From: an uncultured Collinsella sp.
GTDB lineage: Bacteria > Actinomycetota > Coriobacteriia > Coriobacteriales > Coriobacteriaceae
NCBI GenBank assembly: GCA_958453575.1
Contig: CAUDYH010000001.1
Span: forward strand, 1-17,675
Direction: 5' to 3'
Length of the DNA stretch: 17,675 nt
The notes beneath the pieces are model-generated. The model was not told the origin of the DNA. It saw only the letters and a list, made by a program, of their open reading frames with translations, and searched no databases. This document shows, piece after piece, positions 3,292-17,432 of this stretch. The first letter of the stretch is position 1. Every line of letters begins with the position of its first letter. A program made the translations under genes and the position numbers.

Positions 3292-4272
3292 ATGGATCCC
3301 AACAAGCGTCCCGACGACATGGTGCGTATCACCACTCCCGAACTTGCCCAGGTGTTCATCGATGAGCAGGTTGCTGCAATCCGCGAGCAGATTGGCGACA
3401 AGAAGGTCCTGCTGGCTCTTTCCGGCGGCGTCGACAGTTCTGTAGTTGCGGCCCTGCTCATCAAAGCTATCGGCAAGCAGCTCATCTGCGTGCACGTGAA
3501 CCACGGCCTGATGCGCAAGGGCGAGAGCGAACAGGTCGTCGACGTCTTCAAGAACCAGATGGATGCGAACCTGGTCTATGTCGACGCTACTGATCGCTTC
3601 CTGGATAAGCTCGTGGACGTCGAGGAGCCCGAGGCCAAGCGCAAGATTATCGGCGCCGAGTTCATTCGCGTGTTCGAGGAGGAGGCCCGCAAGGTTGGCG
3701 ACGAGGTCAGTTTCCTCGCCCAGGGCACCATCTATCCCGACATTCTGGAGTCGCAGGACGGCGTGAAGGCTCACCACAACGTTGGCGGCCTGCCCGAGGA
3801 CCTGCAGTTTGAGCTCTGCGAGCCCGTCAAGCTGCTGTACAAGGACGAGGTGCGCGTTGTGGGTCGCGAGCTCGGCCTGCCCGAGAACATGGTCGAGCGC
3901 CAGCCGTTCCCCGGCCCCGGCCTGGGCGTCCGTTGCCTTGGCGCCATCACCCGCGACCGCCTCGAGGCACTGCGCGAGGCCGACGCCATTGTGCGCGAGG
4001 AGATCGACAAGGCGGGTCTGACCATCTGGCAGTATTTTGCCGTCGTGCCCGACTTCCGCGCCACCGGCGTGCGCGAGGGCAAGCGCGCCTACGACTGGCC
4101 CTGCATCATCCGCTGCATCAACACCGTCGATGTCATGACCGCCGAGGTACCTGAGCTCGACTGGGCGCTGCTCAAGCGCATTACCGCTCGCGTGACCGCC
4201 GAGGTCTCCGGTATTTGCCGCGTTTGCTACGACCTCACGCCGAAGCCCGTCGGCACGGTCGAGTGGGAGTAA
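3292..4272 (+). CDS. guaA: GMP synthase, ATP-pyrophosphatase and dimerisation subunit without glutaminase domain
   Basis: 326 residues. It converts XMP to GMP by adenylation and amination, the last step of guanine nucleotide synthesis, in the cytosol. The PP-loop SGGVDSS is at residues 44-50; [17 protein letters not shown] and [11 protein letters not shown] are standard GuaA motifs, and the protein ends GTVEWE, like the usual C-terminus. The typical bacterial enzyme is about 510-525 residues with an N-terminal class I glutamine amidotransferase domain. Here the protein starts right before the ATPase domain, and there is no glutaminase frame upstream. The start is firm: ATG 3292 has AAGGAG about 7 bases upstream. 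It therefore resembles the archaeal two-subunit form (GuaAB type) and would need a separate glutaminase, or free ammonia. It is monocistronic, with a terminator just downstream. Confidence 0.93.
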
Positions 4273-4284
4273 GCTAACTCACCT

Positions 4285-4318
4285 AGCCCCCGTTTCCGCT
4301 TGGAAGCGGGGGCTTTTT
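4285..4318 (+). terminator. Rho-independent terminator after the GMP synthase gene
   Basis: AGCCCCCG (4285-4292) pairs with CGGGGGCT (4307-4314), and TTTCC pairs with GGAAG inside it, giving a 13-bp stem with one U-G pair and a GCTT loop. TTTTT follows directly. It lies 12 bases after the guaA stop. Confidence 0.93.
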
Positions 4319-4369
4319 GCTGGCGCTTCGCCCAATTTCGCGCATCTTGGGCCTCACGTATCCTGCGAA

Positions 4370-5545
4370 CTAACAGATGTGACAAAGGGGCAGTTCCTTT
4401 GTCGCATCTTCGATGTTATGCGCGGGAAGGGTCACGAGCATGGTCGTTCCGCGCTCCGAGCTCTCTTCGACCTCGATGGAGCCGCCGTGGAGTGCGGCAA
4501 TCTCCCAGACCAGTGCAAGCCCCAGCCCCACGCCGCCATATGCCCTGCTGCGCGATTTGTCGACGCGATAGAAGGGCTGAAAGATGCTCGTCTGGTATTG
4601 CTCGGGAATGCCCGTCCCCTGGTCGCGCACGCGTAGCAGCACGCGGTCGCCTTCGGCGCAGGCGTTGATTTGCACGGTCGAGTTGGGCGCGCTGTAACGT
4701 ATGGCGTTTTCGGCCAAGTTGAACAGCAGCCGATAGATTAGCGTATCGCTGCCGATCGTTTGCGCGTCGCCCTCACTTGTAAGCGTGATGTCTTTTTGCT
4801 CGGCAAGGGGCGCCAGGTCCGTGAGTACTTCTTCGATCATCGGCGCAAGGTCAATCGCATCGTTGCAAGGGACACTGCGCAGCTCGCTCATCTCGAGCAG
4901 GGTCTTTGTCATGTGCGTCATTCGCTCGGTCTGCTCCTGCAGCAGCCCGAGCAGGCTCGCTGTATCGGCGTCGACGTCGGGGTGCTCGGCGCAAAACAGC
5001 TCAACCTGGGCCTGCATGAGCGCAAGCGGCGTGCGCAGTTCGTGCGCCGCATTGCCCGTAAACTGTCTTTGTGCGGAAAATCCCTCGTCAAGGCGGGCAA
5101 TCATGTCGTTAAACGACGCGCTGCAGCGCCTGAGTTCAGAGGGCACGTCCTCGCTGATTTTTGTGTCGGCGAGGTTGTCGGGCCGCACGCTCTCGACTTG
5201 CGTCGCAAAGAAGCGCAACGGCCGCAGCGCATGTCCGCTTACAAAGTAGGCCAGCACGCCGCCGAGCAGCGTCACCGCCGCAGTTATATACCAGCTCGTC
5301 GCGCCAAACGATTCTTGGGCGTCGTTCACGACGATGGTCAGCGCGTCGTCGAGCTCTTTGTTTGTCGGGTCAAATGAGCTGGGCGAGGCCGCCTCCACCT
5401 TGCTGTGCGCCGACGCTTCTGCACCAATCGAGTCCATGTAGCGCATGCCGGAGTAGCCAACCAGGCAATTCATAAGTACGCAGGTCGAACATATCAGCAG
5501 TGCCGTCATCAACGTGATGCGCCACTGCAGCGACAGCCGCTTCAT
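4370..5545 (-). CDS. Sensor histidine kinase of an OmpR-type two-component system
   Basis: 391 residues. A membrane segment at about residues 9-31 is followed by a short extracytoplasmic loop (32-83), a second membrane segment (about 84-103) and a HAMP linker (about 104-157). The H-box is FTGNAAHELRTPL with phospho-acceptor His168. N-box NLAEN is at 276-280, G1 DQGTGIP at 308-314, F-box FQPFYR at 322-327, and G2 GGVGLGLAL at 337-345. The start ATG 5545 overlaps the response regulator stop by 4 bases (ATGA), with GGAGG about 7 bases before it, so translation is coupled. The catalytic domain would normally end near VTLPA (residue 375). The extra tail ending ATKELPLCHIC is encoded by a dispersed palindromic repeat at 4377-4430. 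The stimulus is unknown; the small sensor loop suggests a membrane or surface cue. Confidence 0.93.
   Translation of the reverse strand: MKRLSLQWRITLMTALLICSTCVLMNCLVGYSGMRYMDSIGAEASAHSKVEAASPSSFDPTNKELDDALTIVVNDAQESFGATSWYITAAVTLLGGVLAYFVSGHALRPLRFFATQVESVRPDNLADTKISEDVPSELRRCSASFNDMIARLDEGFSAQRQFTGNAAHELRTPLALMQAQVELFCAEHPDVDADTASLLGLLQEQTERMTHMTKTLLEMSELRSVPCNDAIDLAPMIEEVLTDLAPLAEQKDITLTSEGDAQTIGSDTLIYRLLFNLAENAIRYSAPNSTVQINACAEGDRVLLRVRDQGTGIPEQYQTSIFQPFYRVDKSRSRAYGGVGLGLALVWEIAALHGGSIEVEESSERGTTMLVTLPAHNIEDATKELPLCHIC
4377..4430. repeat. Dispersed palindromic repeat, copy A (inside kinase 3' end)
   Basis: ATGTGACAAAGG (4377-4388) pairs with CCTTTGTCGCAT (4396-4407), allowing one G-T pair, around GGCAGTT. 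With the following 23 bases it aligns to copy B at 10284-10337 without gaps, 43 of 54 identical by my count. The first 32 bases match copy C, 29 of 32. This copy is read as the last residues of the histidine kinase. Confidence 0.8.
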
Positions 5546-6216
5546 TTGCCGTCCTCCATAACGTAGCCTTCGCCGATTCGGTTGCGGATGGGGTCGTGCC
5601 CCAACGCACCGCGCAGCTTTTTTCGCAGCGACGAGATATGCACGCGGGTCGCGTTGCTAAAGCTGTTGACGCTGCTGTCCCATACATGCTCGATAAGCTC
5701 TTCCTGGCTCACCGGCCGCCCCTGGTTAAGCATCAGGTATTCCAAGATGCCGGTCTCCTTGCGCGTGAGGGATAGAGTCTCGCCGCCCACGGAGGCGAGG
5801 CGCGCCTTGGTGTCAAAGCTCAACAATCCACAGGCTAGAACAACGTCGTTTTGCGTAAAGCGCCTGAGCGTGAGACTGCGTATGCGTGCCGCCAGCTCGT
5901 CAAGATGGAACGGCTTGGTGAGGTAGTCGTTGGCGCCCGCATCGAGCCCCGCTACCTTGTCGGAGACCTCGCCACGTGCCGAGAGCACAAGCACCTTGGT
6001 CTCACAATCAGTTGTCCTGAGTTGCCTGAGCACGGTCATGCCGTCGACATGGGGGAGATTGAGGTCGAGCACGACAAGATCAAAGGTCTCGACATCGAGT
6101 AGATCGAGGGCCTGCTGCCCGTCGTAGCAGCAGTCGACGCTATAGGCCAAGTTGCGCAGGCTGCGTGCGATCGCATCGCACAGCGCCCGCTCGTCCTCGA
6201 CGACCAAGATGCGCAT
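5542..6216 (-). CDS. OmpR/PhoB-family response regulator
   Basis: 224 residues. The receiver domain (about 1-115) has the acidic pair E7/D8, phospho-acceptor Asp51 in VVLDLNLP, Ser79 in LVLSAR and Lys101 in LTKPF. The C-terminal winged helix (about 125-220) carries LSLTRKETGILEYLML, then VHISSLRKKL and IGEGYVM near the end, typical of OmpR/PhoB DNA-binding domains. The start at ATG 6216 has AAGGAG about 6 bases upstream. It is the first gene of a regulator-kinase operon, overlapping the kinase start by 4 bases. The operon diverges from the redox gene block starting at 6306, so that block is a natural candidate target, but no binding repeat was established. Confidence 0.95.
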   Translation of the reverse strand: MRILVVEDERALCDAIARSLRNLAYSVDCCYDGQQALDLLDVETFDLVVLDLNLPHVDGMTVLRQLRTTDCETKVLVLSARGEVSDKVAGLDAGANDYLTKPFHLDELAARIRSLTLRRFTQNDVVLACGLLSFDTKARLASVGGETLSLTRKETGILEYLMLNQGRPVSQEELIEHVWDSSVNSFSNATRVHISSLRKKLRGALGHDPIRNRIGEGYVMEDGK

Positions 6217-6244
6217 AACGTTCTCCTTGCATAGTCATTCACGC

Positions 6245-6272
6245 TTAACACGGATTTTATAGTCGGTATGGT
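6245..6272 (+). promoter_or_regulatory. Candidate promoter for the CXXC miniprotein and Fe-S protein operon
   Basis: TTAACA (6245-6250), a 16-base spacer and TATGGT (6267-6272) fit a sigma-70-type promoter about 33 bases before the TTG start at 6306. The reverse strand holds TATAAA (6256-6261) that could serve the divergent response regulator, although I see no good matching -35. Confidence 0.35.
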
Positions 6273-6305
6273 CCAATGGGTCGCGAAACGAAAGGAGTGG
6301 TCAGA

Positions 6306-6452
6306 TTGTTCAAAGCGATTAAGCCTGTGGCGCAGGTGGCTTTGCTGATCGTTGGGGTAGCCATGGTTGGCTTTGGAATTATGCGCGGCGAGGCAGATGC
6401 CGTGCTGGCCAAGGCAATCAGGCTGTGCTTGGAGTGTATCGGAATTGGATAA
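6306..6452 (+). CDS. CD1871A-type CXXC motif miniprotein
   Basis: 48 residues from TTG 6306, with AAGGAG 8 bases upstream. A single hydrophobic helix (VAQVALLIVGVAMVGFGI, about residues 8-25) is followed by MRGEADAVLAKAIRLCLECI, with Cys41 and Cys44 forming CLEC and the end reading GIG. The pattern RGE, then KA, then CLECIGIG matches the CD1871A family of CXXC miniproteins, which I recall being encoded beside 4Fe-4S and TlpA-like proteins, as here. Its biochemical role is not established. I infer a membrane-anchored thiol or metal-binding partner of the Fe-S protein. Its stop overlaps the next gene's start by 8 bases, so translation is likely coupled. Confidence 0.85.
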   Translation: MFKAIKPVAQVALLIVGVAMVGFGIMRGEADAVLAKAIRLCLECIGIG

Positions 6453-7356
6453 AAGAAAAAACACTGCATCGCATCTTTTAGCGCGATTTCGTGGATTGAT
6501 TCAGGCGGCGGCGACGCTTGCGACCAATATTCACCTGCCTAACTTTGCCAAGGGCGGTATCTACCAGGGAGCCGGCAAAGCCGTCTGCGTGCCGGGGCTT
6601 AACTGCTACTCGTGTCCAGCGGCCTCGGGTGCGTGCCCCATCGGGTCGTTTCAGTCGGTGGTGGGATCGTCTAAGTTCAGCTTTTCGTATTACGTCACCG
6701 GAACGCTCATTCTGATCGGCGTGTTACTGGGACGTTTTGTATGCGGCTTTTTGTGTCCGTTTGGATGGCTGCAAGAGCTTCTGCATAAGATTCCCAGCAA
6801 AAAGCTCTCCACGAAAAAGCTCAAGCCGCTCACGTACATCAAGTATGCCGTGCTACTGTTTGCCGTGGTGCTGCTGCCCGTCTTGGTGGTTAACGATGTG
6901 GGTATGGGCGACCCGTTCTTTTGCAAGTACATCTGCCCGCAGGGTGTGCTGGAGGGCGCGATTCCGCTGTCCATCATGAACATGGGAATCCGCTCTGCGC
7001 TGGGAAAGCTCTTTTCCTGGAAGCTCGCGATCCTCATTGCGGTTGCGGTGCTGAGCGTGCTGTTCTACCGCCCCTTCTGCAAATGGATTTGCCCCCTCGG
7101 CGCATTTTATGCACTCATGAACAAGGTGTCGTTGCTGGGGATTCAGGTCGATCATTGTAAATGCGTCTCGTGCGGCAAGTGCGCCAAGGTGTGCCAGATG
7201 GACGTGGACGTTACGCGTACGCCCGACCATGCCGAGTGCATTCGTTGCGGCAAATGCGTGGGCGCGTGCCCCGTCGATGCTATTAGCTTTCGCTACGGGC
7301 TGGGTGTGACGGGCGACAAACCCGCGCAGTCCACGCAAGCCCGCGAAAACAAATAG
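6445..7356 (+). CDS. NapH/YccM-like polytopic membrane 4Fe-4S protein
   Basis: 303 residues. The start TTG 6445 overlaps the miniprotein stop; an earlier ATG at 6367 would run through the miniprotein gene in another frame, so I reject it. Residues 48-64 hold a Cys cluster (C48, C54, C57, C64: PGLNCYSCP and GACPIG). Membrane helices lie at about 84-102, 133-150 and 192-208. Each of three CxxxCP elements (CGFLCPFG at 100, CKYICPQG at 160, CKWICPLG at 212) sits at or just after a membrane segment. The C-terminus has two ferredoxin motifs: C240/C243/C246/C250, and C265/C268/C271/C275 ending in CP. Related proteins pass electrons between the quinone pool or ferredoxin and extracytoplasmic partners. 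Here the partner is probably the thioredoxin lipoprotein encoded 35 bases downstream. The exact donor and acceptor are unknown. Confidence 0.92.
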   Translation: MDKRKNTASHLLARFRGLIQAAATLATNIHLPNFAKGGIYQGAGKAVCVPGLNCYSCPAASGACPIGSFQSVVGSSKFSFSYYVTGTLILIGVLLGRFVCGFLCPFGWLQELLHKIPSKKLSTKKLKPLTYIKYAVLLFAVVLLPVLVVNDVGMGDPFFCKYICPQGVLEGAIPLSIMNMGIRSALGKLFSWKLAILIAVAVLSVLFYRPFCKWICPLGAFYALMNKVSLLGIQVDHCKCVSCGKCAKVCQMDVDVTRTPDHAECIRCGKCVGACPVDAISFRYGLGVTGDKPAQSTQARENK

Positions 7357-7391
7357 GTACCTATATAAGTTTCGATATAAACGGAGGAACC

Positions 7392-8354
7392 ATGAAACTG
7401 TCAAAAATTGCGGCTCTGTTGATGCTGCCCGTGCTGGCGCTGACTCTCGCGGCGTGCTCTGCCCCCAAGGGCGACGCGAAGGATGCCACGAGCGGCGATG
7501 CGCAGATTGCCGAGCTTGTGGCACAAAAGCCGTCGAGCGCCGAGGAGGCGGCCAAGCTGTACCAGCAGCTGCTGCAAAAGGAAAACGAGATCTTTGCGAG
7601 CGATAACGCCCTATGGGAAAAGGTGTTCCTTGCGGCCAACAAAGACACTCCCATGATTGAGGACGGCAAGAACTACGGTGACTTCTTGCTCGATACCATC
7701 GAGGGCGCCAAGGATCAGTTTGCGGCTGACGAGCTTAAGACGCTTAAGGCCGGCGCGCAGCAGGTCAAGGAGATCGAGGACAAGCTCATGGCGCTGGAGA
7801 AGGAGTTCCCCGGATGTGGCAGCACGCCCGGCGAGGGGGAGAGCGTTGATGCCTCGACCGCGGGCATGACCAACGGCGAGAGCGGGGAGACGAAGTTCCC
7901 CAGCTTTAAGGGCAAGGACTTGGACGGCAACGATGTAAACAGCGACGAGCTGTTCTCCAAGAACAAGGTCACCGTCATGAACTTCTGGTTTACCACCTGC
8001 AAGCCGTGCGTGGGAGAGCTGGGCGATCTGGAGAAGCTCAACAAGGAGCTTGCCGAGAAGGGCGGCCAGGTCGTGGGCGTTAATTCCTTTACGCTCGATG
8101 GCAACAAAGACGAGGTGGCTGATGCCAAGGACGTGCTTTCCAAGAAGGGCGTGACGTATAAGAACATCTGGTTTAAGTCGGACAGCGAGGCCGGAAAGTT
8201 CACCTCCAACCTGTACTCGTTCCCGACCACCTACGTGATCGACCAGAACGGTAACATTGTGGGAGAGCCGATCATGGGCGGCATCAACTCCGCTGAGCAG
8301 CGCGAGGCGCTCAACAAACTGATCGATCAGGCACTCGCGAAGAGCGAACAGTAA
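7392..8354 (+). CDS. TlpA-like thioredoxin-fold lipoprotein
   Basis: 320 residues, with GGAGG just before ATG 7392. The signal peptide ends in the lipobox LAAC, with lipid-anchored Cys22. Residues 23-150 form a helical, charged region (KLYQQLLQKENEIF, KEIEDKLMALEKEFPGCG) that I do not match to a named domain. A low-complexity Gly/Ser/Glu linker (about 150-170) leads to a thioredoxin/AhpC-TSA-like domain: MNFWFTTCKPC with active-site Cys203 and Cys206, and SFPTTYVIDQNGNIVG with the cis-Pro loop. It should act outside the membrane as a thiol-disulfide oxidoreductase. No CcdA/DsbD-type reductase is encoded nearby, so the membrane Fe-S protein upstream may keep it reduced (inference). A terminator follows 25 bases after the stop. 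Confidence 0.94.
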   Translation: MKLSKIAALLMLPVLALTLAACSAPKGDAKDATSGDAQIAELVAQKPSSAEEAAKLYQQLLQKENEIFASDNALWEKVFLAANKDTPMIEDGKNYGDFLLDTIEGAKDQFAADELKTLKAGAQQVKEIEDKLMALEKEFPGCGSTPGEGESVDASTAGMTNGESGETKFPSFKGKDLDGNDVNSDELFSKNKVTVMNFWFTTCKPCVGELGDLEKLNKELAEKGGQVVGVNSFTLDGNKDEVADAKDVLSKKGVTYKNIWFKSDSEAGKFTSNLYSFPTTYVIDQNGNIVGEPIMGGINSAEQREALNKLIDQALAKSEQ

Positions 8355-8379
8355 GTCCGTGGGACAGACAACTGAAGGG

Positions 8380-8407
8380 GAGTCGCTGAAAACAGCGACT
8401 CTTTTTT
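8380..8407 (+). terminator. Rho-independent terminator after the thioredoxin lipoprotein gene
   Basis: GAGTCGCTG (8380-8388) pairs with CAGCGACTC (8393-8401) around an AAAA loop, then six T. The rhodanese-like reading frame begins immediately after the T run. Confidence 0.92.
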
Positions 8408-8425
8408 CTGCTTCGGGGTAGCATC

Positions 8426-8578
8426 ATGGGTATACGTCGAAAGGGCACGCAGCTTTTCGTGCATTGCCTGAGCGGTGCGCGAAGCAACCAAGCTGTGAGT
8501 TTTCTTAAGCGTTCTGGGTATGGCAGTGTCAAGAATATCGGCGGCATAAGCGGCTACACGGGAAAGGTGGTGCGTTAG
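8426..8578 (+). pseudogene. Truncated rhodanese: C-terminal half only
   Basis: The frame from ATG 8426 to TAG 8576-8578 encodes 50 residues: FVHCLSGARSNQAVSFLKRS, then GYGSVKNIGGISGYTGKVVR. This is the second half of a single-domain rhodanese, with the catalytic loop CxxGxRS intact. The first half (DVR, GHIPGA-type motifs) is missing. Rhodanese-like reading continues upstream of the ATG to about 8411, where it meets the T run of the terminator, so I infer a deletion joined the 3' part of the gene to the terminator. There is no clear ribosome binding site. It lies 2 bases before the reductase-rhodanese gene. A functional 50-residue product is unlikely, because the active-site loop needs the missing sheet. 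Confidence 0.75.
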
Positions 8579-8580
8579 CT

Positions 8581-10272
8581 ATGAAGGTGGTTATCGTTGG
8601 AGGCGTCGCGGGCGGCGCATCGGCGGCGGCACGTTTGCGCAGACTCGACGAGCAGGCCCAAATTGTCATCTTTGAGCGCACGGGTTTTGTATCGTATGCC
8701 AACTGTGGGCTTCCGTACTACATTGGCGGCGTGATAGAAGAAGAGAGCGCATTGACGCTGCAGTCTCCCAAGGGCTTTTGGGATCGCTTTCGCATTGCGG
8801 TCAAGACGAGTCACGAGGTGTTTGCCATCCATCCCGATTCGCATACGGTCGAGGTTCGCAATATGCTGACGGGCGAGGAATTTGTCGAGACGTATGACAA
8901 GCTCATCCTGTCGCCGGGTGCAAAGCCGATTCGCCCTGCGTTGCCGGGCATCGACTCGGATAAAATCTTTAGCCTACGCACCGTTGAGGACACGCTGCGT
9001 ATTCACAGCTATGTTCGAGAGCGGCGACCGAGCAGTGCCGTCGTGATCGGCGGCGGCTTCATTGGCGTCGAGACGGCGGAGAATCTGTGTGAGCTGGGGC
9101 TCCAGGTGACCCTTCTGCAGCGTCCCGTCCAGCTTATGAACAACCTGGATTACGACATGGCGACCCTTTTGCATACCGAGGTGCGTGAGCACGGTATCGA
9201 TCTGCGCCTCAAGGCCGATGTGACAGGTTTTGAGGAAGTTGATGGCCGCGTTGTCACCCATGTTGCGGGCGATGACCCTATCGGAGCCGATATGGTGCTG
9301 CTTGCCATTGGCGTGGCACCTGAGAGCCATCTGGCGCAAGAGGCGGGGCTCGAACTGGGCATCAAGGGGGCTATTGTGGTCAACGACCGCATGGAGACCT
9401 CTGCTGCCGACGTGTATGCCGTGGGCGATGCCGTGCAGGTCACGCATCAGGTGACCGGCGAGGACGCGGTCATTTCGCTCGCCGGCCCCGCCAACAAGCA
9501 GGGGCGTGTCGTCGCCGATGTCATAGCCGGCATGGACAGCTGCTACCGCGGATCGTTGGGCTCATCGGTTATCAAGGTATTCGACTTGACGGCGGCAAGC
9601 ACGGGACTATCCGAAAAGGCAGCACGCGCGGCGGGAATTGACTGCGACAGCGTGGTCCTGTCGCCCGGTTCGCATGCGGGTTATTATCCGGGTGCAACGC
9701 CCATGACCATGAAGGTTGTCTTCGAGAAGCAGGGATTGCGCCTGCTGGGTGCGCAAATCGTGGGCATCGATGGTGTGGACAAGCGTATCGACGTTCTGGC
9801 GACTGCCATCCAGGCAGGCATGCGCGGCGATAGGCTTAAGGATTTGGACCTAGCATACGCGCCGCCGTATTCATCGGCGAAGGATCCCGTCAATATGGCG
9901 GGCTTTATGATCGAGAACCTCAATCGCGGCATACTGGCGCAGTGGCATTGGGAGGATGAGCCCAACTTGCCACGCGATGGCAGCGTGCAGCTGCTCGATG
10001 TTCGTACGGAAGGGGAGTATGAGCGCGGGCATATCGATGGTTTCGTAAACATTCCCGTCGATGATCTGCGCAATCGCCTGGGCGAGCTCGACCGGGCCAA
10101 GCCGGTCTACGTGATTTGCCAGAGCGGCATTCGCAGCTACATTGCTTGCCGCATTTTGGCGCAGCATGGCTTTGAGTGCTTTAACTTCTCGGGCGGCTAT
10201 CGCTTCTTTGTGGCCGTGACTGAGGCTCGCCGCGGCAGCGCTAACGTTATGCCGTGCGGGCTCGAAAAGTAG
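8581..10272 (+). CDS. FAD-dependent CoA-disulfide/persulfide reductase fused to a rhodanese domain
   Basis: 563 residues. The FAD-binding motif VIVGGVAGGASAAARLRR is at residues 4-21. The single active cysteine is Cys42 in SYANCGLPYYIGG, the signature of the CoA-disulfide reductase/NADH oxidase family. A second nucleotide motif (VVIGGGFIGVE, about 153) binds NAD(P)H, and VYAVGDAVQV near residue 279 is the second FAD contact. A dimerisation domain follows. A rhodanese domain begins near residue 465 (LLDVRT with Asp473, GHIDGFVNIP) with catalytic Cys513 in CQSGIRS. This matches the CoADR-RHD type known from Bacillus and Shewanella (Npsr), which reduces CoA-disulfide, CoA-persulfide or polysulfide. 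The start ATG 8581 has GGAAAGG upstream inside the rhodanese remnant. It is cytosolic, and I infer sulfur or persulfide detoxification or reduction. Confidence 0.93.
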   Translation: MKVVIVGGVAGGASAAARLRRLDEQAQIVIFERTGFVSYANCGLPYYIGGVIEEESALTLQSPKGFWDRFRIAVKTSHEVFAIHPDSHTVEVRNMLTGEEFVETYDKLILSPGAKPIRPALPGIDSDKIFSLRTVEDTLRIHSYVRERRPSSAVVIGGGFIGVETAENLCELGLQVTLLQRPVQLMNNLDYDMATLLHTEVREHGIDLRLKADVTGFEEVDGRVVTHVAGDDPIGADMVLLAIGVAPESHLAQEAGLELGIKGAIVVNDRMETSAADVYAVGDAVQVTHQVTGEDAVISLAGPANKQGRVVADVIAGMDSCYRGSLGSSVIKVFDLTAASTGLSEKAARAAGIDCDSVVLSPGSHAGYYPGATPMTMKVVFEKQGLRLLGAQIVGIDGVDKRIDVLATAIQAGMRGDRLKDLDLAYAPPYSSAKDPVNMAGFMIENLNRGILAQWHWEDEPNLPRDGSVQLLDVRTEGEYERGHIDGFVNIPVDDLRNRLGELDRAKPVYVICQSGIRSYIACRILAQHGFECFNFSGGYRFFVAVTEARRGSANVMPCGLEK

Positions 10273-10283
10273 CGCGCATTGGA

Positions 10284-10337
10284 ATGTGACAAAGTGACAG
10301 CCTCTTTGTCGCATCGGGGATGTTATATGCGGGATGG
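10284..10337. repeat. Dispersed palindromic repeat, copy B
   Basis: ATGTGACAAAG (10284-10294) pairs with CTTTGTCGCAT (10304-10314) around a 9-base loop, then GATGTTAT and GCGGGA as in copy A. It begins 11 bases after the stop of the reductase-rhodanese gene. Apart from this element, the gap to 10493 holds only a GC-rich leader. Confidence 0.75.
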
Positions 10338-10474: not shown

Positions 10475-10493
10475 GCGAGAGAGGTTGCCGTCC

Positions 10494-13400
10494 ATGCTGG
10501 ATCTCAGAGTTATTTGCAAAAGGTACGTTACGCAGTCGTTTACGCAGGTAGCGCTCGACAGCGTAAGCCTGTCTTTTCGCGATAACGAGTTCGTAGCCAT
10601 TCTGGGTCCCTCGGGTTCGGGTAAAACTACGATGCTCAACGTCATCGGTGGACTCGATCATTTCGATTCGGGCGATCTGCTGATCGACGGCATCTCGACC
10701 AAGGACTTCAACGACCACGATTGGGATGCCTATCGCAATAATCGCATCGGCTTTGTGTTCCAGAGCTATAACCTCATTCCGCACCAGAGCATTTTGGAAA
10801 ACGTGGAGTTGGCGCTTACGCTCGCGGGCGTGGGGCATGCCGAGCGCCGCCAACGTGCGCGCAAGGCGCTCGAGGCAGTCGGTCTGGGCGAGCACGTTGA
10901 CAAGCGCCCGAGCCAGCTTTCGGGCGGGCAGATGCAGCGCGTGGCCATTGCCCGCGCCCTGATCAATGACCCCGAGATTGTGCTGGCTGACGAGCCGACC
11001 GGCGCCTTGGACTCAACGACGTCCGTCCAGGTCATGGATTTGCTCAAGGACGTTGCGCGCGACCGTCTGGTCATCATGGTCACGCACAATCCCGAGCTGG
11101 CGTACAAGTACGCCACGCGCATTGTCAACCTGGCGGACGGCAAGGTCACCGACGATTCAGATCCCTTTGATGCTGCCGAGGCCGCGCGTCGCGAGGCCAA
11201 GCCCACGCGCAAAACCTCGATGAGCTTTGTGACGGCGCTTGGGCTTTCTGCCCGAAACCTCATGACCAAGAAGGGCCGCACGGCCATGACGGCCTTTGCA
11301 GGTTCGATTGGCATTATTGGCATCGCGGCGATTCTGGCGCTCTCCAACGGCGTAAACGGCTACATCAAAAAGGTCGAGGAGGACACACTCTCGAGCTACC
11401 CGCTTACGATTTCCAAACAAGATTATGACCTGTCATCCATGATGGGCGGGAATGGGGCCACGGATGACGATACGTCCAAGAACGAGGGTTCGTCCGACGA
11501 CGGCACCGACGGCAAGGCTCAGGGGACCGATAAGATCCCTGTGGTCACGGCCGTAAAGGATATGTTCGCAAGCGTTAAGTCAAACGACATGACGAGCTTT
11601 AAGGCATGGCTCGATGCCGGTGGCGACGGCATCGATAAAGAGGTCAACGCCATTCAGTACGGCTACGGCGTGACGCCGGTTGTCTATCGTGCCGGCAAGG
11701 GCGATGAGAAGCCTGTCCGGCTGGTGCCCAACGCCATGACCGAGGCCATGAGCGGAGGCGCGAGCTCGGCGGCAACGGTGAGCATGGAATCCATGGGAAC
11801 CTCGGTCTTTAACGAGATGATTGACGACCAGAGCCTGCTCGACAGCCAGTACGATGTCGTTGCCGGCCATTGGCCTACGTCCGCCAACGAGGCCGTGATG
11901 GTGCTTTCGAGCCGCGGAACGGTGGGCGACTACACGCTCTACAGTATCGGCGCGCTGGATATCGATGAGCTCAACGACCTGGTTAACAGTGCCATGACGG
12001 CCGACGGCAAGGTCAAGACGCCCAAGACCGGCAGCGACTTTACCTACGACGATGCACTGTCCACGACGTTTAAGGTGTTGTCGCCGGCCGATGCCTATCG
12101 CAAAAACGAAGAGACCGGCATGTGGACTGACATGTCTGGCGACGCCGACTTTATGAAAGCCAAGGTTGCCGACGGTATTGACGCGCGCATTGTGGGCGTG
12201 GTGCGACCCAACGAGACGGCAAACGCGAGCGCATTGTCCCCGGGCATTGTCTATACGCATGCGCTGACTCGCCAGCTTATGGAGCGTGCTGCCGATTCGC
12301 AGATTGTGCAGGAGCAGCTTGCCCACCCCGAGACGGATGTCTTTACGGGCAAAACCTTCGACGAGCTGCAGGGCGAAGCCAAGCAGGGCGTGGATTTGGG
12401 CGGTATGTTCAGCGTAGACGAGGCGGCACTGAAGAGCGCGTTCTCACTCGATACGTCTGCGCTCTCGGGCGCAGCCGGCGGTATGGACCTTTCTGGTCTC
12501 GACTTGTCCGGGCTGGACATTGACCTTTCGGGTGTTGGGAGGGACATCGACTTTAGTGACATCATGGCCAAAGCGCCGGCCCCAGATTTCTCGGGCATCT
12601 TTGATGGTCTTGAGCTCACGCCTGAGCAAATGCAGCAGGTGGGAGCACTTGCCAACCAGCTGTTTGAGGGCTTTATGCGCTCTGATCAGTTTAAGGCGCT
12701 GTCACCCGAAGATCTTAAGGATGCGTCAAAGCTTGCTGCCGCATTCTCGGCGTATCTTGAGCATGATGCCGCAGCCCAGCAAATCCTGGCCCAGCTCAAA
12801 GCGCTCGGCGGCGATGCCCTGGCCGAGCGCCTGCAGCAGGCGATGACCGACTATGTACAAAAGCAGCTGGCTCCGTATCTGCAGCAGGCTATGGATCAGG
12901 TGATGAAGGCGGTCAGCGAGCAGATTGCGACGACGGTATCAACCCAGCTCAAGGCGGGTGCGGCAGGGCTCACGGACCAAATGGCGACGCAGATGTCTTC
13001 GAGTTTTGCCAACCTGGCGAGCGCCATGCGCGTGGATGCGGGCGCCTTTGCTCGTGCCATCCACTTCAACATGGACGCCGAGGACCTGAGCTCGCTCATG
13101 ATGAGCTATGCCAAGGCGTCGAAGCTCACCTACGACAACAATCTGACCACGTTGGGCTATGCGGACGAGGCGGACCCCATTTCGGTCAAGATTTTCCCGC
13201 GCGACTTTGAGGCCAAGGAGCGCGTGCTCGATTACATCGATGCGTACAACAAGCAGGTCAAAGCCGCTGGTCACGATGAGCAGGCAATCTCGTATACCGA
13301 CTACATGGGCATCATCATGGGCTCGGTGACCGACATCGTGAACACCATCAGCTTGGTGCTCATCTCATTCGTGAGTATCAGTTTGGTGGTGAGCTCCATC

Positions 13401-13748
13401 ATGATCGGCATCATCACCTACATCAGCGTGCTGGAGCGCAAAAAGGAGATTGGCATCCTGCGCGCGATCGGCGCGTCAAAGCGCAACGTGGCAAACGTAT
13501 TTAATGCCGAGACCTTTATCGAAGGCCTCATTGCCGGCGTCTTTGCCATTGTCGTCGTGGTGGCCGTGAGCTTTCCGGTTAATGCCTGGGCGCTTGCGGC
13601 CAAGCAGGTGCCCAACCTGATGAGCCTGCCCGTTCAAGACGCGCTGATGCTCATTGTAATTTCGGTGCTGCTGACGGTCGTTGCCGGCCTGCTGCCGGCT
13701 CGCAGCGCATCCAAGAAAGACCCTGTGGAAGCCCTACGCTCCGAATAA
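10494..13748 (+). CDS. MacB-like ABC transporter, fused ATPase and FtsX-type permease with giant extracytoplasmic domain
   Basis: 1084 residues from ATG 10494, preferred over TTG 10485 because GAGAGAGG abuts the TTG but lies 9 bases before the ATG. The ATPase domain (1-225) has Walker A GPSGSGKTT at 38-46, signature LSGGQ at 142-146, Walker B VLADEPTG at 163-170 and switch His198; this is the LolD/MacB family. A first membrane helix at about 265-286 is followed by some 650 extracytoplasmic residues: an acidic linker (about 311-345), a short LSGLDLSGLDIDLSG repeat (about 665-680) and helical, probably coiled-coil segments (about 786-845). The FtsX-type end (about 945-1084) has three helices and VLERKKEIGILRAIGASKRN. 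MacB is about 650 residues in total, so the outer region is greatly enlarged. Related exporters handle peptides, lipoproteins or cell-wall signals; the substrate here is unknown. Confidence 0.92.
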   Translation: MLDLRVICKRYVTQSFTQVALDSVSLSFRDNEFVAILGPSGSGKTTMLNVIGGLDHFDSGDLLIDGISTKDFNDHDWDAYRNNRIGFVFQSYNLIPHQSILENVELALTLAGVGHAERRQRARKALEAVGLGEHVDKRPSQLSGGQMQRVAIARALINDPEIVLADEPTGALDSTTSVQVMDLLKDVARDRLVIMVTHNPELAYKYATRIVNLADGKVTDDSDPFDAAEAARREAKPTRKTSMSFVTALGLSARNLMTKKGRTAMTAFAGSIGIIGIAAILALSNGVNGYIKKVEEDTLSSYPLTISKQDYDLSSMMGGNGATDDDTSKNEGSSDDGTDGKAQGTDKIPVVTAVKDMFASVKSNDMTSFKAWLDAGGDGIDKEVNAIQYGYGVTPVVYRAGKGDEKPVRLVPNAMTEAMSGGASSAATVSMESMGTSVFNEMIDDQSLLDSQYDVVAGHWPTSANEAVMVLSSRGTVGDYTLYSIGALDIDELNDLVNSAMTADGKVKTPKTGSDFTYDDALSTTFKVLSPADAYRKNEETGMWTDMSGDADFMKAKVADGIDARIVGVVRPNETANASALSPGIVYTHALTRQLMERAADSQIVQEQLAHPETDVFTGKTFDELQGEAKQGVDLGGMFSVDEAALKSAFSLDTSALSGAAGGMDLSGLDLSGLDIDLSGVGRDIDFSDIMAKAPAPDFSGIFDGLELTPEQMQQVGALANQLFEGFMRSDQFKALSPEDLKDASKLAAAFSAYLEHDAAAQQILAQLKALGGDALAERLQQAMTDYVQKQLAPYLQQAMDQVMKAVSEQIATTVSTQLKAGAAGLTDQMATQMSSSFANLASAMRVDAGAFARAIHFNMDAEDLSSLMMSYAKASKLTYDNNLTTLGYADEADPISVKIFPRDFEAKERVLDYIDAYNKQVKAAGHDEQAISYTDYMGIIMGSVTDIVNTISLVLISFVSISLVVSSIMIGIITYISVLERKKEIGILRAIGASKRNVANVFNAETFIEGLIAGVFAIVVVVAVSFPVNAWALAAKQVPNLMSLPVQDALMLIVISVLLTVVAGLLPARSASKKDPVEALRSE

Positions 13749-16064: not shown

Positions 16065-16095
16065 ATCGACAGGCGAATGGCAATTATACAAAAAC

Positions 16096-16113
16096 ACCTA
16101 CCGAACGGTAGGT
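16096..16113. promoter_or_regulatory. TetR operator in the deiminase control region
   Basis: ACCTACCG (16096-16103) and CGGTAGGT (16106-16113) form a perfect inverted repeat around AA. Size, symmetry and location in the region between the TetR gene and its divergent neighbour fit a TetR operator. No strong promoter boxes for the plus strand could be fixed here; TATAGT at 16113 and TACTAT at 16121 are possible -10 elements. Confidence 0.7.
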
Positions 16114-16193
16114 ATAGTAGTACTATAGCTGGTGTAACCCCGCTATTGTCGCGGCCGGACAGCATTGCGGGAAACCCGACGGAAGGACCAACC

Positions 16194-17432
16194 ATGTACG
16201 AGAACTATCGTATGCCGGGCGAGTTTGAGAAGCGCTCCAACGTCTATGTGACATGGCTTCCCGATTACATTCGCGCAGAGGGCTTCGATAATCGCCAGCC
16301 CTGCGTTGACGTAATTAAAGCTTTGCTTGAGTATGGCGATGTTACGGTCAACCTCAACTGTGGCACCCCCGGCTCCTACGAGGAAGCCTGCTCGCGCCTT
16401 AAAGAAGAAGGGGTGGATCTCGACCGTATCCAGATTACGCAGTTCGAAGACTCCAACTTCTACGTTCGCGACAACGGCCCCAGCATCATGGTCGACGACG
16501 AAGGCCATTCCTATATGGTCAACCCCGCTTGGACCTATTATGGCGTGTGGGACAAGAACTCCCCAGAGTGCCAGTCCGCACGCAGGGCAGCTGTTCACAT
16601 GGCGGTTGCGCTCGGGTGCTTCGATATCGTCAATTCCGAAATGGTTTCGGAGGGCGGCGACCGCGAGTTTGACGGTCACGGCACCCTGATCGCCATCGAG
16701 GACACGGAATGCCGCAAGCGCAATCCCGAGTTCTCAAAAGAGGAAGTGGAGGCCGAGTACAAGCGCATCTACAACCTCAACAAGGTTATCTGGCTGCCGC
16801 AGCCTATGCTTGAGGACGACGACTATCGACTGGGCATCCTCGACGAGAAGGAAGATGGAACTCCTGTCTTCGGCATGAGCTTCGCCGCCCACATCGATGA
16901 GATGTGCCGCTTTATCACCCCGAACAAGATTCTTCTTGCCGAGGTATCCGATGAGGAGGCCGCCTCGAGCAAGGCGGGCGCGGAATCGCGTCGTCGCATC
17001 GACGCCGCCTACGAGATTCTACGCGCCGAGACGGACTGGGAGGGCAAGCCCTTCGAAATCGTCCGCATGCCCACTGCCGAGCCGATCGAGGTTGTCATCG
17101 CCCCCGGCGACGAGGACTACGAGCTGTATAAGGGCTTCATCGACGAAATGGGCGGCAAGTTCATGGATGGCACCCCTTGGCCCGAAGGCCCCGTTCACTT
17201 TTATGCCGCAGCAAGCTACTGCAACTTCCTCATCTGCAACGGCGTCGTTCTTGGCCAGCGTTATTACCACGAAGGCATGAGCGAAGTCGTGAAGGAGAAG
17301 GACAAGCAGGCCAAGGCGGTTCTTGAGAGCTGCTTCCCCGATCGCAAGGTCATCATGATCGACTCTCTCGCGCTTAACCTGTCCGGCGGCGGCGTGCACT
17401 GCTGGACCAAGGACGTGGCCGCCAGCTGCTAG
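16194..17432 (+). CDS. Agmatine deiminase / peptidylarginine deiminase family guanidino hydrolase
   Basis: 412 residues from ATG 16194, with GGAAGGA about 7 bases upstream; the longer frame from 16077 would run through the operator. Motifs follow the PPAD/agmatine deiminase fold: YRMPGEFE at 5-12, VRDNGPS with Asp93, EGGDREFDGHGT at 153-164, HIDE with His233 and Asp235, and GGGVHCW with nucleophile Cys403. The enzyme should hydrolyse a guanidino group to a ureido group and ammonia. It has no signal peptide, so it is cytosolic. Agmatine deiminases are about 370 residues and typically read HVDN and GGGNIHC; this protein is longer and reads HIDE and GGGVHC, so the substrate may be agmatine, arginine or another guanidine. 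The carbamoyltransferase gene that follows suggests a carbamoyl-phosphate-forming catabolic pathway. Confidence 0.87.
   Translation: MYENYRMPGEFEKRSNVYVTWLPDYIRAEGFDNRQPCVDVIKALLEYGDVTVNLNCGTPGSYEEACSRLKEEGVDLDRIQITQFEDSNFYVRDNGPSIMVDDEGHSYMVNPAWTYYGVWDKNSPECQSARRAAVHMAVALGCFDIVNSEMVSEGGDREFDGHGTLIAIEDTECRKRNPEFSKEEVEAEYKRIYNLNKVIWLPQPMLEDDDYRLGILDEKEDGTPVFGMSFAAHIDEMCRFITPNKILLAEVSDEEAASSKAGAESRRRIDAAYEILRAETDWEGKPFEIVRMPTAEPIEVVIAPGDEDYELYKGFIDEMGGKFMDGTPWPEGPVHFYAAASYCNFLICNGVVLGQRYYHEGMSEVVKEKDKQAKAVLESCFPDRKVIMIDSLALNLSGGGVHCWTKDVAASC

Follow-up and report, generated by a model that had tools for sequence, protein, structure and literature searches.

A 17,675-nucleotide stretch of DNA from an uncultured Collinsella sp. 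(GenBank assembly GCA_958453575.1, contig CAUDYH010000001.1; the whole stretch is called the window here) encodes, side by side, a one-helix miniprotein of the CD1871A family, a NapH-like membrane iron-sulfur (Fe-S) protein and a TlpA/ResA-like lipoprotein. Comparison with related loci makes it near certain that the proteins of this unit are functionally coupled, and the unit is probably an Fe-S-based transmembrane reductant for extracytoplasmic thiols that works independently of CcdA/DsbD. An earlier sequence-only reading of the window had suggested an alternative electron route of this kind, and comparative evidence now supports it: linkage of the three families is conserved, fusions exist, and CcdA/DsbD is depleted in genomes that carry the unit. 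The same reading had described three intact open reading frames (ORFs) packed with an 8-base overlap and then a 35-base gap. Frames and packing are confirmed (Table 1), as are the families: CD1871A (NF040920), NapH-like (Fer4_5 twice plus Fer4) and TlpA lipoprotein (AhpC-TSA/Redoxin).

Linkage was assessed by searching with the CD1871A profile in 149 Coriobacteriia genomes, 197 genomes from the order of a Faecalibacterium carrier, which we take to be Oscillospirales, and 398 genomes from the phylum of a Blautia carrier (the "Clostridia phylum" sample). Carriers numbered 21, 22 and 60, respectively, with 15 of the 60 under the curated cut-off, and the three samples yielded 22 + 24 + 60 = 106 matching loci. 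A NapH-like gene lies beside 105 of these, on the same strand and within 300 bp in 101; the remaining match (L138) has neither a NapH-like nor a TlpA partner and was scored as a miss. TlpA is near 93 of the 106, where all three families stand together, in keeping with the adjacency on which the sequence-only reading depended. By sample, TlpA accompanies all 22 matches in Coriobacteriia, 23 of the 24 in Oscillospirales and, within the phylum sample, 29 of 30 in one half and 19 of 30 in the other. The Coriobacteriia genes were counted by tblastn, since they are cut in the fetched stretches and the profile alone saw 7 of the 22; L145 was also counted by tblastn, and L097, with a TlpA gene 5.3 kb off, was scored as a miss at the 2.5-kb limit. 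Lineages differ in whether TlpA lies upstream or downstream, which indicates that the linkage has outlived rearrangement. A reverse search from the NapH-like protein gave at least 593 relatives, the best 80 of which form the "named" set, an uneven sample that was chosen by similarity to the window and shares some Collinsella genomes with the Coriobacteriia sample. The miniprotein is present at all 80 named loci, and TlpA lies within 2.5 kb at 74. The counts from both search directions suggest that the miniprotein and the NapH-like protein form the core of the unit, with TlpA as the usual partner.

The strongest evidence for electron passage between the NapH-like protein and TlpA comes from their fusion. 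At locus L140, in a Clostridia lineage, a membrane helix and then a TlpA domain with WCTPC follow the ferredoxin domain within one and the same NapH-like protein, and the reading frame of a CxxC miniprotein ends immediately 5' of the fusion gene. A search with the L140 protein gave 7855 relatives, of which the best 120 all hold NapH-like and TlpA domains (89 with one TlpA domain, 31 with two), in a ranking that favours fusions because the query is itself a fusion. The layout fits the predicted topology, in which the ferredoxin end faces the cytosol and TlpA the exterior. Fusion of the miniprotein to the NapH-like protein was also considered; the six-frame segments checked held no native case, and the sole candidate reads through a TGA stop.

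The TlpA protein of the window has the lipobox LTLAAC and the active site CKPC. C203, C206 and P278 are invariant in 33 aligned TlpA sequences (the window's included), and the lipobox Cys is kept in at least 90%. The AhpC-TSA/Redoxin fold, CxxC motif, cis-Pro and export of this lipoprotein are those of TlpA/ResA-like proteins, and its solved structural relatives are thiol:disulfide proteins; its score on the ResA model PRK03147 is under the cut-off (47.3 against 170 bits). For 19 of the 47 TlpA neighbours in the Clostridia-phylum sample, the TlpA domain contains a single TGA, exactly at the first catalytic Cys and with a Cys at +3. No such TGA was seen in the TlpA genes of the other sets (22 from Oscillospirales, 7 readable ones from Coriobacteriia and 75 from the named loci). 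SelB exceeded its cut-off in 18 of the 19 genomes with a TGA-type TlpA, as against 10 of 19 others (Fisher p 0.008). The position of the TGA and the presence of SelB identify these genes as predicted selenoproteins with selenocysteine (Sec) at the active site. The genome nearest to the Collinsella-like window among those compared (G001) also has SelB, and the window's own TlpA has Cys. The TGA-type loci are L147, L155, L156, L158-L161, L164-L167, L169-L172, L174, L175, L177 and L179, and plain ORF calling splits these genes. A review of selenoproteins tabulates UxxC thioredoxin-like proteins and one UGC TlpA family (PMC13188914). The TlpA proteins described here resemble these in having Sec at a thioredoxin-fold active site; they differ in their motif, UxxC rather than the UGC of the tabulated TlpA family, and the portion of the review available makes no mention of a NapH-like/CD1871A pairing.

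The miniprotein scores 65.8 bits on the CD1871A profile (cut-off 32), covering profile positions 2-38 of 38, and so belongs to that family. The CLEC motif that the sequence-only reading had noted lies at its end and is part of a general pattern: the protein ends in CxxC, 3-5 residues (nearly always four) and the stop codon at 186 of 186 loci, a count that leaves out ten re-fetched loci. C-x-E-C occurs in 158 of the 186, and CLECIGIG or CLECVGIG in 118. Net charge is about +2.6 on the N-terminal side and +0.2 on the C-terminal side; given the positive N-terminal side, the C-terminus with its CxxC is predicted to lie outside.

The NapH-like protein has the structural features of NapH, two CX3CP motifs and two C-terminal [4Fe-4S] motifs, and scores well under the NapH cut-offs (69.1 against 213 bits for TIGR02163, and 57 against 234 bits for PRK09477). 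Its neighbours are a two-component system, the miniprotein and TlpA rather than nap genes. Four membrane Cys groups and a two-cluster ferredoxin end had been recognized in the sequence-only reading; the groups are 48/54/57/64, 100/104, 160/164 and 212/216, and the ferredoxin end has two 4-Cys motifs. Cys 48, 54, 57, 64, 100, 104, 160 and 164 are kept in 173 of 173 core loci (including ten re-fetches, L203-L212), and Cys 212, Cys 216 and the eight ferredoxin Cys in 172. Only C100, C104, C212, C216 and the eight ferredoxin Cys are common to this protein, one NapH and one YccM; C48, C54, C57, C64, C160 and C164 are missing from the NapH and YccM compared, and charge pattern and hydropathy place these six on the predicted outer face. 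Hydropathy alone gives three clear membrane helices, and the N-terminal helix is assumed from likeness to NapH. From these patterns we infer two redox sites, an inner one that NapH relatives share and an outer one peculiar to the NapH-like family. The longer homologues of NapH (P0004-P0006 and P0080), which contain repeats of their own sequence and look like assembly chimeras, were left unused. Separately, Enterococcus faecium plasmids (237 Enterococcus records) encode a protein with a ferredoxin stretch like that of the window's NapH-like protein (44 residues, 64% identity in most matches listed).

The likeness to NapH raises the question of whether the NapH-like protein oxidizes menaquinol as a true NapH does, with electrons from the quinone pool passing outward to TlpA. 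This is unlikely: menaquinol is too oxidizing for a typical TlpA dithiol, and the ferredoxin Cys are almost always retained. In its favour, the shared core with two CX3CP motifs has been proposed to be the quinol-oxidizing domain of NapH, as far as the available part of the source goes (PMC5928378).

Genomes that carry the unit tend not to encode CcdA/DsbD. PF02683 was found in 2 of 21 Coriobacteriia carriers (one at just E 8e-6) versus 96 of 128 non-carriers, in 2 of 22 Oscillospirales carriers versus 66 of 175 non-carriers, and in 12 of 45 over-cut-off Clostridia-phylum carriers (one at E 9e-4) versus 254 of 338 non-carriers, with Fisher p values of 1e-8, 0.008 and 3e-10, respectively, uncorrected for kinship. 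With weak CD1871A matches counted, the Clostridia-phylum carriers with PF02683 number 17 of 60. PF13386 was over its cut-off in 13 of 77 carriers, ten of the 87 being left out (G396, G444, G539, G569, G612, G695, G714, G716, G736 and G775), and G001 has neither PF02683 nor PF13386. The unit's five genes (see below) contain no DsbD_TM domain. The absence of CcdA/DsbD from the window, claimed in the sequence-only reading, holds for the ten larger ORFs run against Pfam, with an ABC transporter gene (10485-13748) outside the ten. In the co-occurrence survey that the reading had called for, CcdA/DsbD is under-represented in carriers as a tendency and is not excluded from them.

Possible clients and the direction of flow can be considered together. 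A fused MsrA-MsrB with a lipoprotein signal is encoded downstream of TlpA at L052, L056, L060 and L066, and MsrAB remnants (partial or deleted, near 9.8-10.3 kb) follow the unit at L049, L064 and L070, whose near relatives keep intact copies. MsrAB also lies downstream at L212 and, with a membrane anchor, upstream at L018; it therefore occurs on either side of the unit. A frame of fused MsrAB size was found in 3 of 42 carriers asked (G071, G079 and G360; the 42, for MsrA and PF01578 alike, omit G208, the genome of L138). It adjoins the unit in G079 and G360, and the G071 copy lies elsewhere, with no evident signal sequence. MsrAB was rejected as the general client because only 9 of the 42 carriers have MsrA. 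Electrons might instead run inward, with TlpA forming disulfides in exported proteins and passing electrons through the miniprotein and the NapH-like protein to the cytosol, in the manner of DsbA/DsbB. Sequence does not fix direction, and an outward CxxC with a membrane redox protein would suit an oxidase too. However, TlpA/ResA relatives are established reductants, MsrAB, which needs a reductant, adjoins the unit, CcdA, a reductant conduit, is depleted in carriers, and the attacking position of TlpA can be Sec, which together make inward flow very unlikely. TlpA might also help to mature cytochrome c or copper sites, drawing its electrons from the NapH-like protein; ResA, CcmG and MauD-type TlpA proteins have functions of this kind. 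Such a role is most improbable: the cytochrome c assembly family PF01578 was over cut-off in 4 of the 42 carriers and not found in G001, and cytochrome c maturation was rejected for most carriers; this evidence concerns cytochrome c alone.

In the window lineage, the unit extends beyond the three redox genes. The sequence-only reading was right about these genes and their coordinates but overlooked the two-component system encoded on the minus strand at 4370-6216, which is part of the unit and co-inherited with the redox genes, making five genes. A divergent response regulator gene lies within 450 bp of the miniprotein at 55 of the 80 named loci, with an adjoining kinase gene at 52; a further 6 have a co-directional kinase upstream, and 19 meet neither rule. 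In some of these 19 the contig begins there (L052 and L085), and in some the pair lies further off (L100, L104 and L110). The divergent promoter contains an operator-like motif, CTTAACA-nn-GATTTTA, which also occurs upstream of the miniprotein at 35 of 80 named and 12 of 22 Coriobacteriia loci, with about 0 expected in shuffles; the motif was picked after viewing the sequences, and the loci are related. It was found at 0 of 24 Oscillospirales and 1 of 60 Clostridia-phylum loci. When window positions 4001-10300 were compared with Tractidigestivibacter L037, the sole DNA match at E 1e-5 was 91.7% over 4422-8339, that is, the five-gene block, and a related block is 93-98% alike across several Clostridia genera (L053, L054, L056, L059, L060, L064 and L070). 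These matches suggest that the unit is transferred in these lineages as a cassette that includes its regulator, and the gene set appears to be horizontally spread among many gut anaerobes. None of the plasmid records spans 80% of the five-gene block, and the ten best span 3-4%. An 809-kb plasmid of Peptoclostridium acidaminophilum (L223) has the pair, under the annotations CD1871A family and 4Fe-4S binding protein; a TlpA gene lies about 1.5 kb upstream of it, past an MFS gene.

These observations can be combined into a proposed path. A low-potential donor in the cytosol, probably ferredoxin, would reduce the two C-terminal [4Fe-4S] clusters of the NapH-like protein. Electrons would then pass through the inner Cys site (C100/C104/C212/C216) that is shared with NapH, and next to the family-special outer Cys site formed from C48/C54/C57/C64/C160/C164. 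The outward CLEC dithiol of the miniprotein would stand at the exit and hand two electrons to the active-site disulfide or selenenyl-sulfide of TlpA, which, anchored by its lipid, would reduce extracytoplasmic clients, MsrAB in some genomes. The divergent two-component system would turn the operon on in the window lineage. We infer the direction, cofactors, electron donor, clients, place of the miniprotein and sensed signal in this scheme; its first and last steps draw on knowledge of the families, and the middle steps are set in a presumptive order. A more specific version, tentative and short of an even chance, is that the unit is a transmembrane ferredoxin:thioredoxin reductase. The NapH-like protein would be an Fe-S wire whose outer cluster reduces the miniprotein dithiol in two one-electron steps, so that ferredoxin directly charges exported thioredoxins, whether these have Cys or Sec. 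The problem that CcdA/DsbD solves would then have been solved a second time, independently in evolution, by a self-regulated five-gene cassette spread among gut anaerobes.

Several points weigh against a CcdA/DsbD-independent reductant of this kind. PF02683 is present in the 12 Clostridia-phylum carriers counted above and in 10 of the 50 named carriers asked (50 of the 80 named genomes). Within Collinsella there is no contrast (1 of 11 carriers versus 1 of 8 non-carriers), and 7 of the 8 non-carriers have neither the unit nor PF02683, which argues against simple replacement. MsrA, as noted, is infrequent among carriers. The AlphaFold model is too weak for cluster geometry (mean pLDDT 61), and a structure search was confident for the ferredoxin domains only, the rest being chance matches. 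The available text of PMC5928378 reports NosR with at most 8 Fe; the CX3CP pairs may therefore be thiols and hold no clusters. Finally, 12 of the 105 miniprotein/NapH-like pairs have no TlpA gene found nearby, L181, L187, L201 and L202 among them. Of 22 members with lower scores (L181-L202), 21 have the first Cys out of register and 8 lack C160. The pairs without TlpA and the loss of C160 would fit a pair that moves electrons outward in general and serves several partners, of which TlpA would only be the commonest. This is rather doubtful, since TlpA is near 93 of the 106 matches and is fused in one lineage. A reductant for extracytoplasmic thiols remains the preferred reading.

Table 1. Features of the unit and its divergent promoter in the window.
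Feature	Coordinates	Strand	Details
Sensor histidine kinase, in co-inherited block	4370..5545	-	HisKA + HATPase_c
OmpR/PhoB-type response regulator, divergent from redox genes	5542..6216	-	Response_reg + Trans_reg_C
Operator-like motif CTTAACACGGATTTTA, divergent promoter	6244..6259	+	pattern upstream of miniprotein in related loci
Possible -10 element TATGGT, 7 bases 3' of operator-like motif	6267..6272	+	by eye, weak
CD1871A-family one-helix miniprotein, ending ...CLECIGIG	6306..6452	+	48 aa, TTG start; NF040920 E 2.2e-18
NapH-like membrane Fe-S protein, 18 conserved Cys	6445..7356	+	303 aa, TTG start; PF12801 E 6e-24
TlpA/ResA-like thioredoxin-fold lipoprotein, CKPC, N-terminal helical insert	7392..8354	+	320 aa, ATG; AhpC-TSA E 1.4e-15

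AAAGGAG lies immediately 5' of the miniprotein TTG start. Two neighbouring genes were considered as members of the unit and left out: the CoA-disulfide reductase gene downstream (8581-10272), whose cluster is present at just 2 of the 80 named loci, and a CAAX-type protease gene, whose cluster is present at 6 of the 80 and not always directly downstream. An Rce1/CAAX-type membrane protease gene lies 3' of the unit at L089, L092, L094 and L105, and an FMN reductase gene at L087. A lipoprotein of unknown type and about 230-280 residues is encoded directly 5' of the miniprotein at L095, L099, L104 and L110, that of L110 having no Pfam match. The lower-scoring pairs with no TlpA found nearby are L180, L181, L183, L184, L186, L187, L192, L194, L197, L201 and L202; several of their miniproteins end in a CLSCIGIQ-type sequence, and in L201 and L202 the pair is followed by an RNase HIII-like gene (by eye). 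Elsewhere in the window, a short rhodanese-like fragment (VHCLSGARSNQAV...) at 8426-8578 has the look of a remnant (by eye) and lies immediately 5' of the CoA-disulfide reductase/rhodanese gene, a lone ORF at 3292-4272 resembles the C-terminal, ATP-pyrophosphatase half of GMP synthase, with no amidotransferase half (by eye), and positions 16077-17432 encode a Peptidyl-arginine deiminase family protein (PF04371).

To our knowledge, surface-thiol reduction in strict anaerobes without CcdA/DsbD has hardly been studied. The unit would offer a concrete answer, built from other parts, to how such anaerobes maintain surface thiols, and would tie ferredoxin to the repair of oxidized surface proteins. 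It also suggests a job for the 48-residue CD1871A protein, which has no assigned function, and a setting for a group of Sec-containing TlpA proteins. If the proposal is true, Fe-S proteins in gut anaerobes do a job that the unrelated CcdA/DsbD membrane protein does elsewhere; the genes are small and found in common gut bacteria, so the idea is quickly testable. A literature search, with most subscription papers and all bioRxiv preprints outside its reach, found no description of the module, no paper that mentions CD1871A and none in which NapH, TlpA and CcdA appear together.

Three groups of known systems invite comparison. Ferredoxin:thioredoxin reductase turns ferredoxin-level electrons into a dithiol in the cytosol. 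The unit would perform the same conversion, as do, in the accessible part of the report, the clostridial ferredoxin-dependent thioredoxin reductases (PMC10880999); in contrast to these cytosolic enzymes, it is predicted to act across the membrane. With NapH, MauN, YccM, NosR and RdhC, the NapH-like protein shares a membrane core with two CX3CP motifs, and with NapH and YccM the C-terminal [4Fe-4S] motifs too. It differs from this group in six further invariant Cys that are predicted to face outward, its thioredoxin-fold partner and a score far under the NapH cut-off. The third group comprises CcdA/DsbD-thioredoxin-MsrAB systems, which include pneumococcal Etrx/MsrAB2 (PMC3914529) and the Fusobacterium nucleatum msrAB-trx-ccdA-ModRS locus, with its two-component system, thioredoxin, MsrAB and CcdA (PMC9239216). 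As far as these sources were available, the F. nucleatum locus appears to be the closest characterized system found. Like these systems, the unit has a surface TlpA-like protein, an MsrAB client in some genomes and an apparent oxidative-stress logic, and it shares a linked two-component system with the F. nucleatum locus. The important difference is the conduit: in place of CcdA, which is depleted in carriers, the unit would use a NapH-like Fe-S protein and a CLEC miniprotein.

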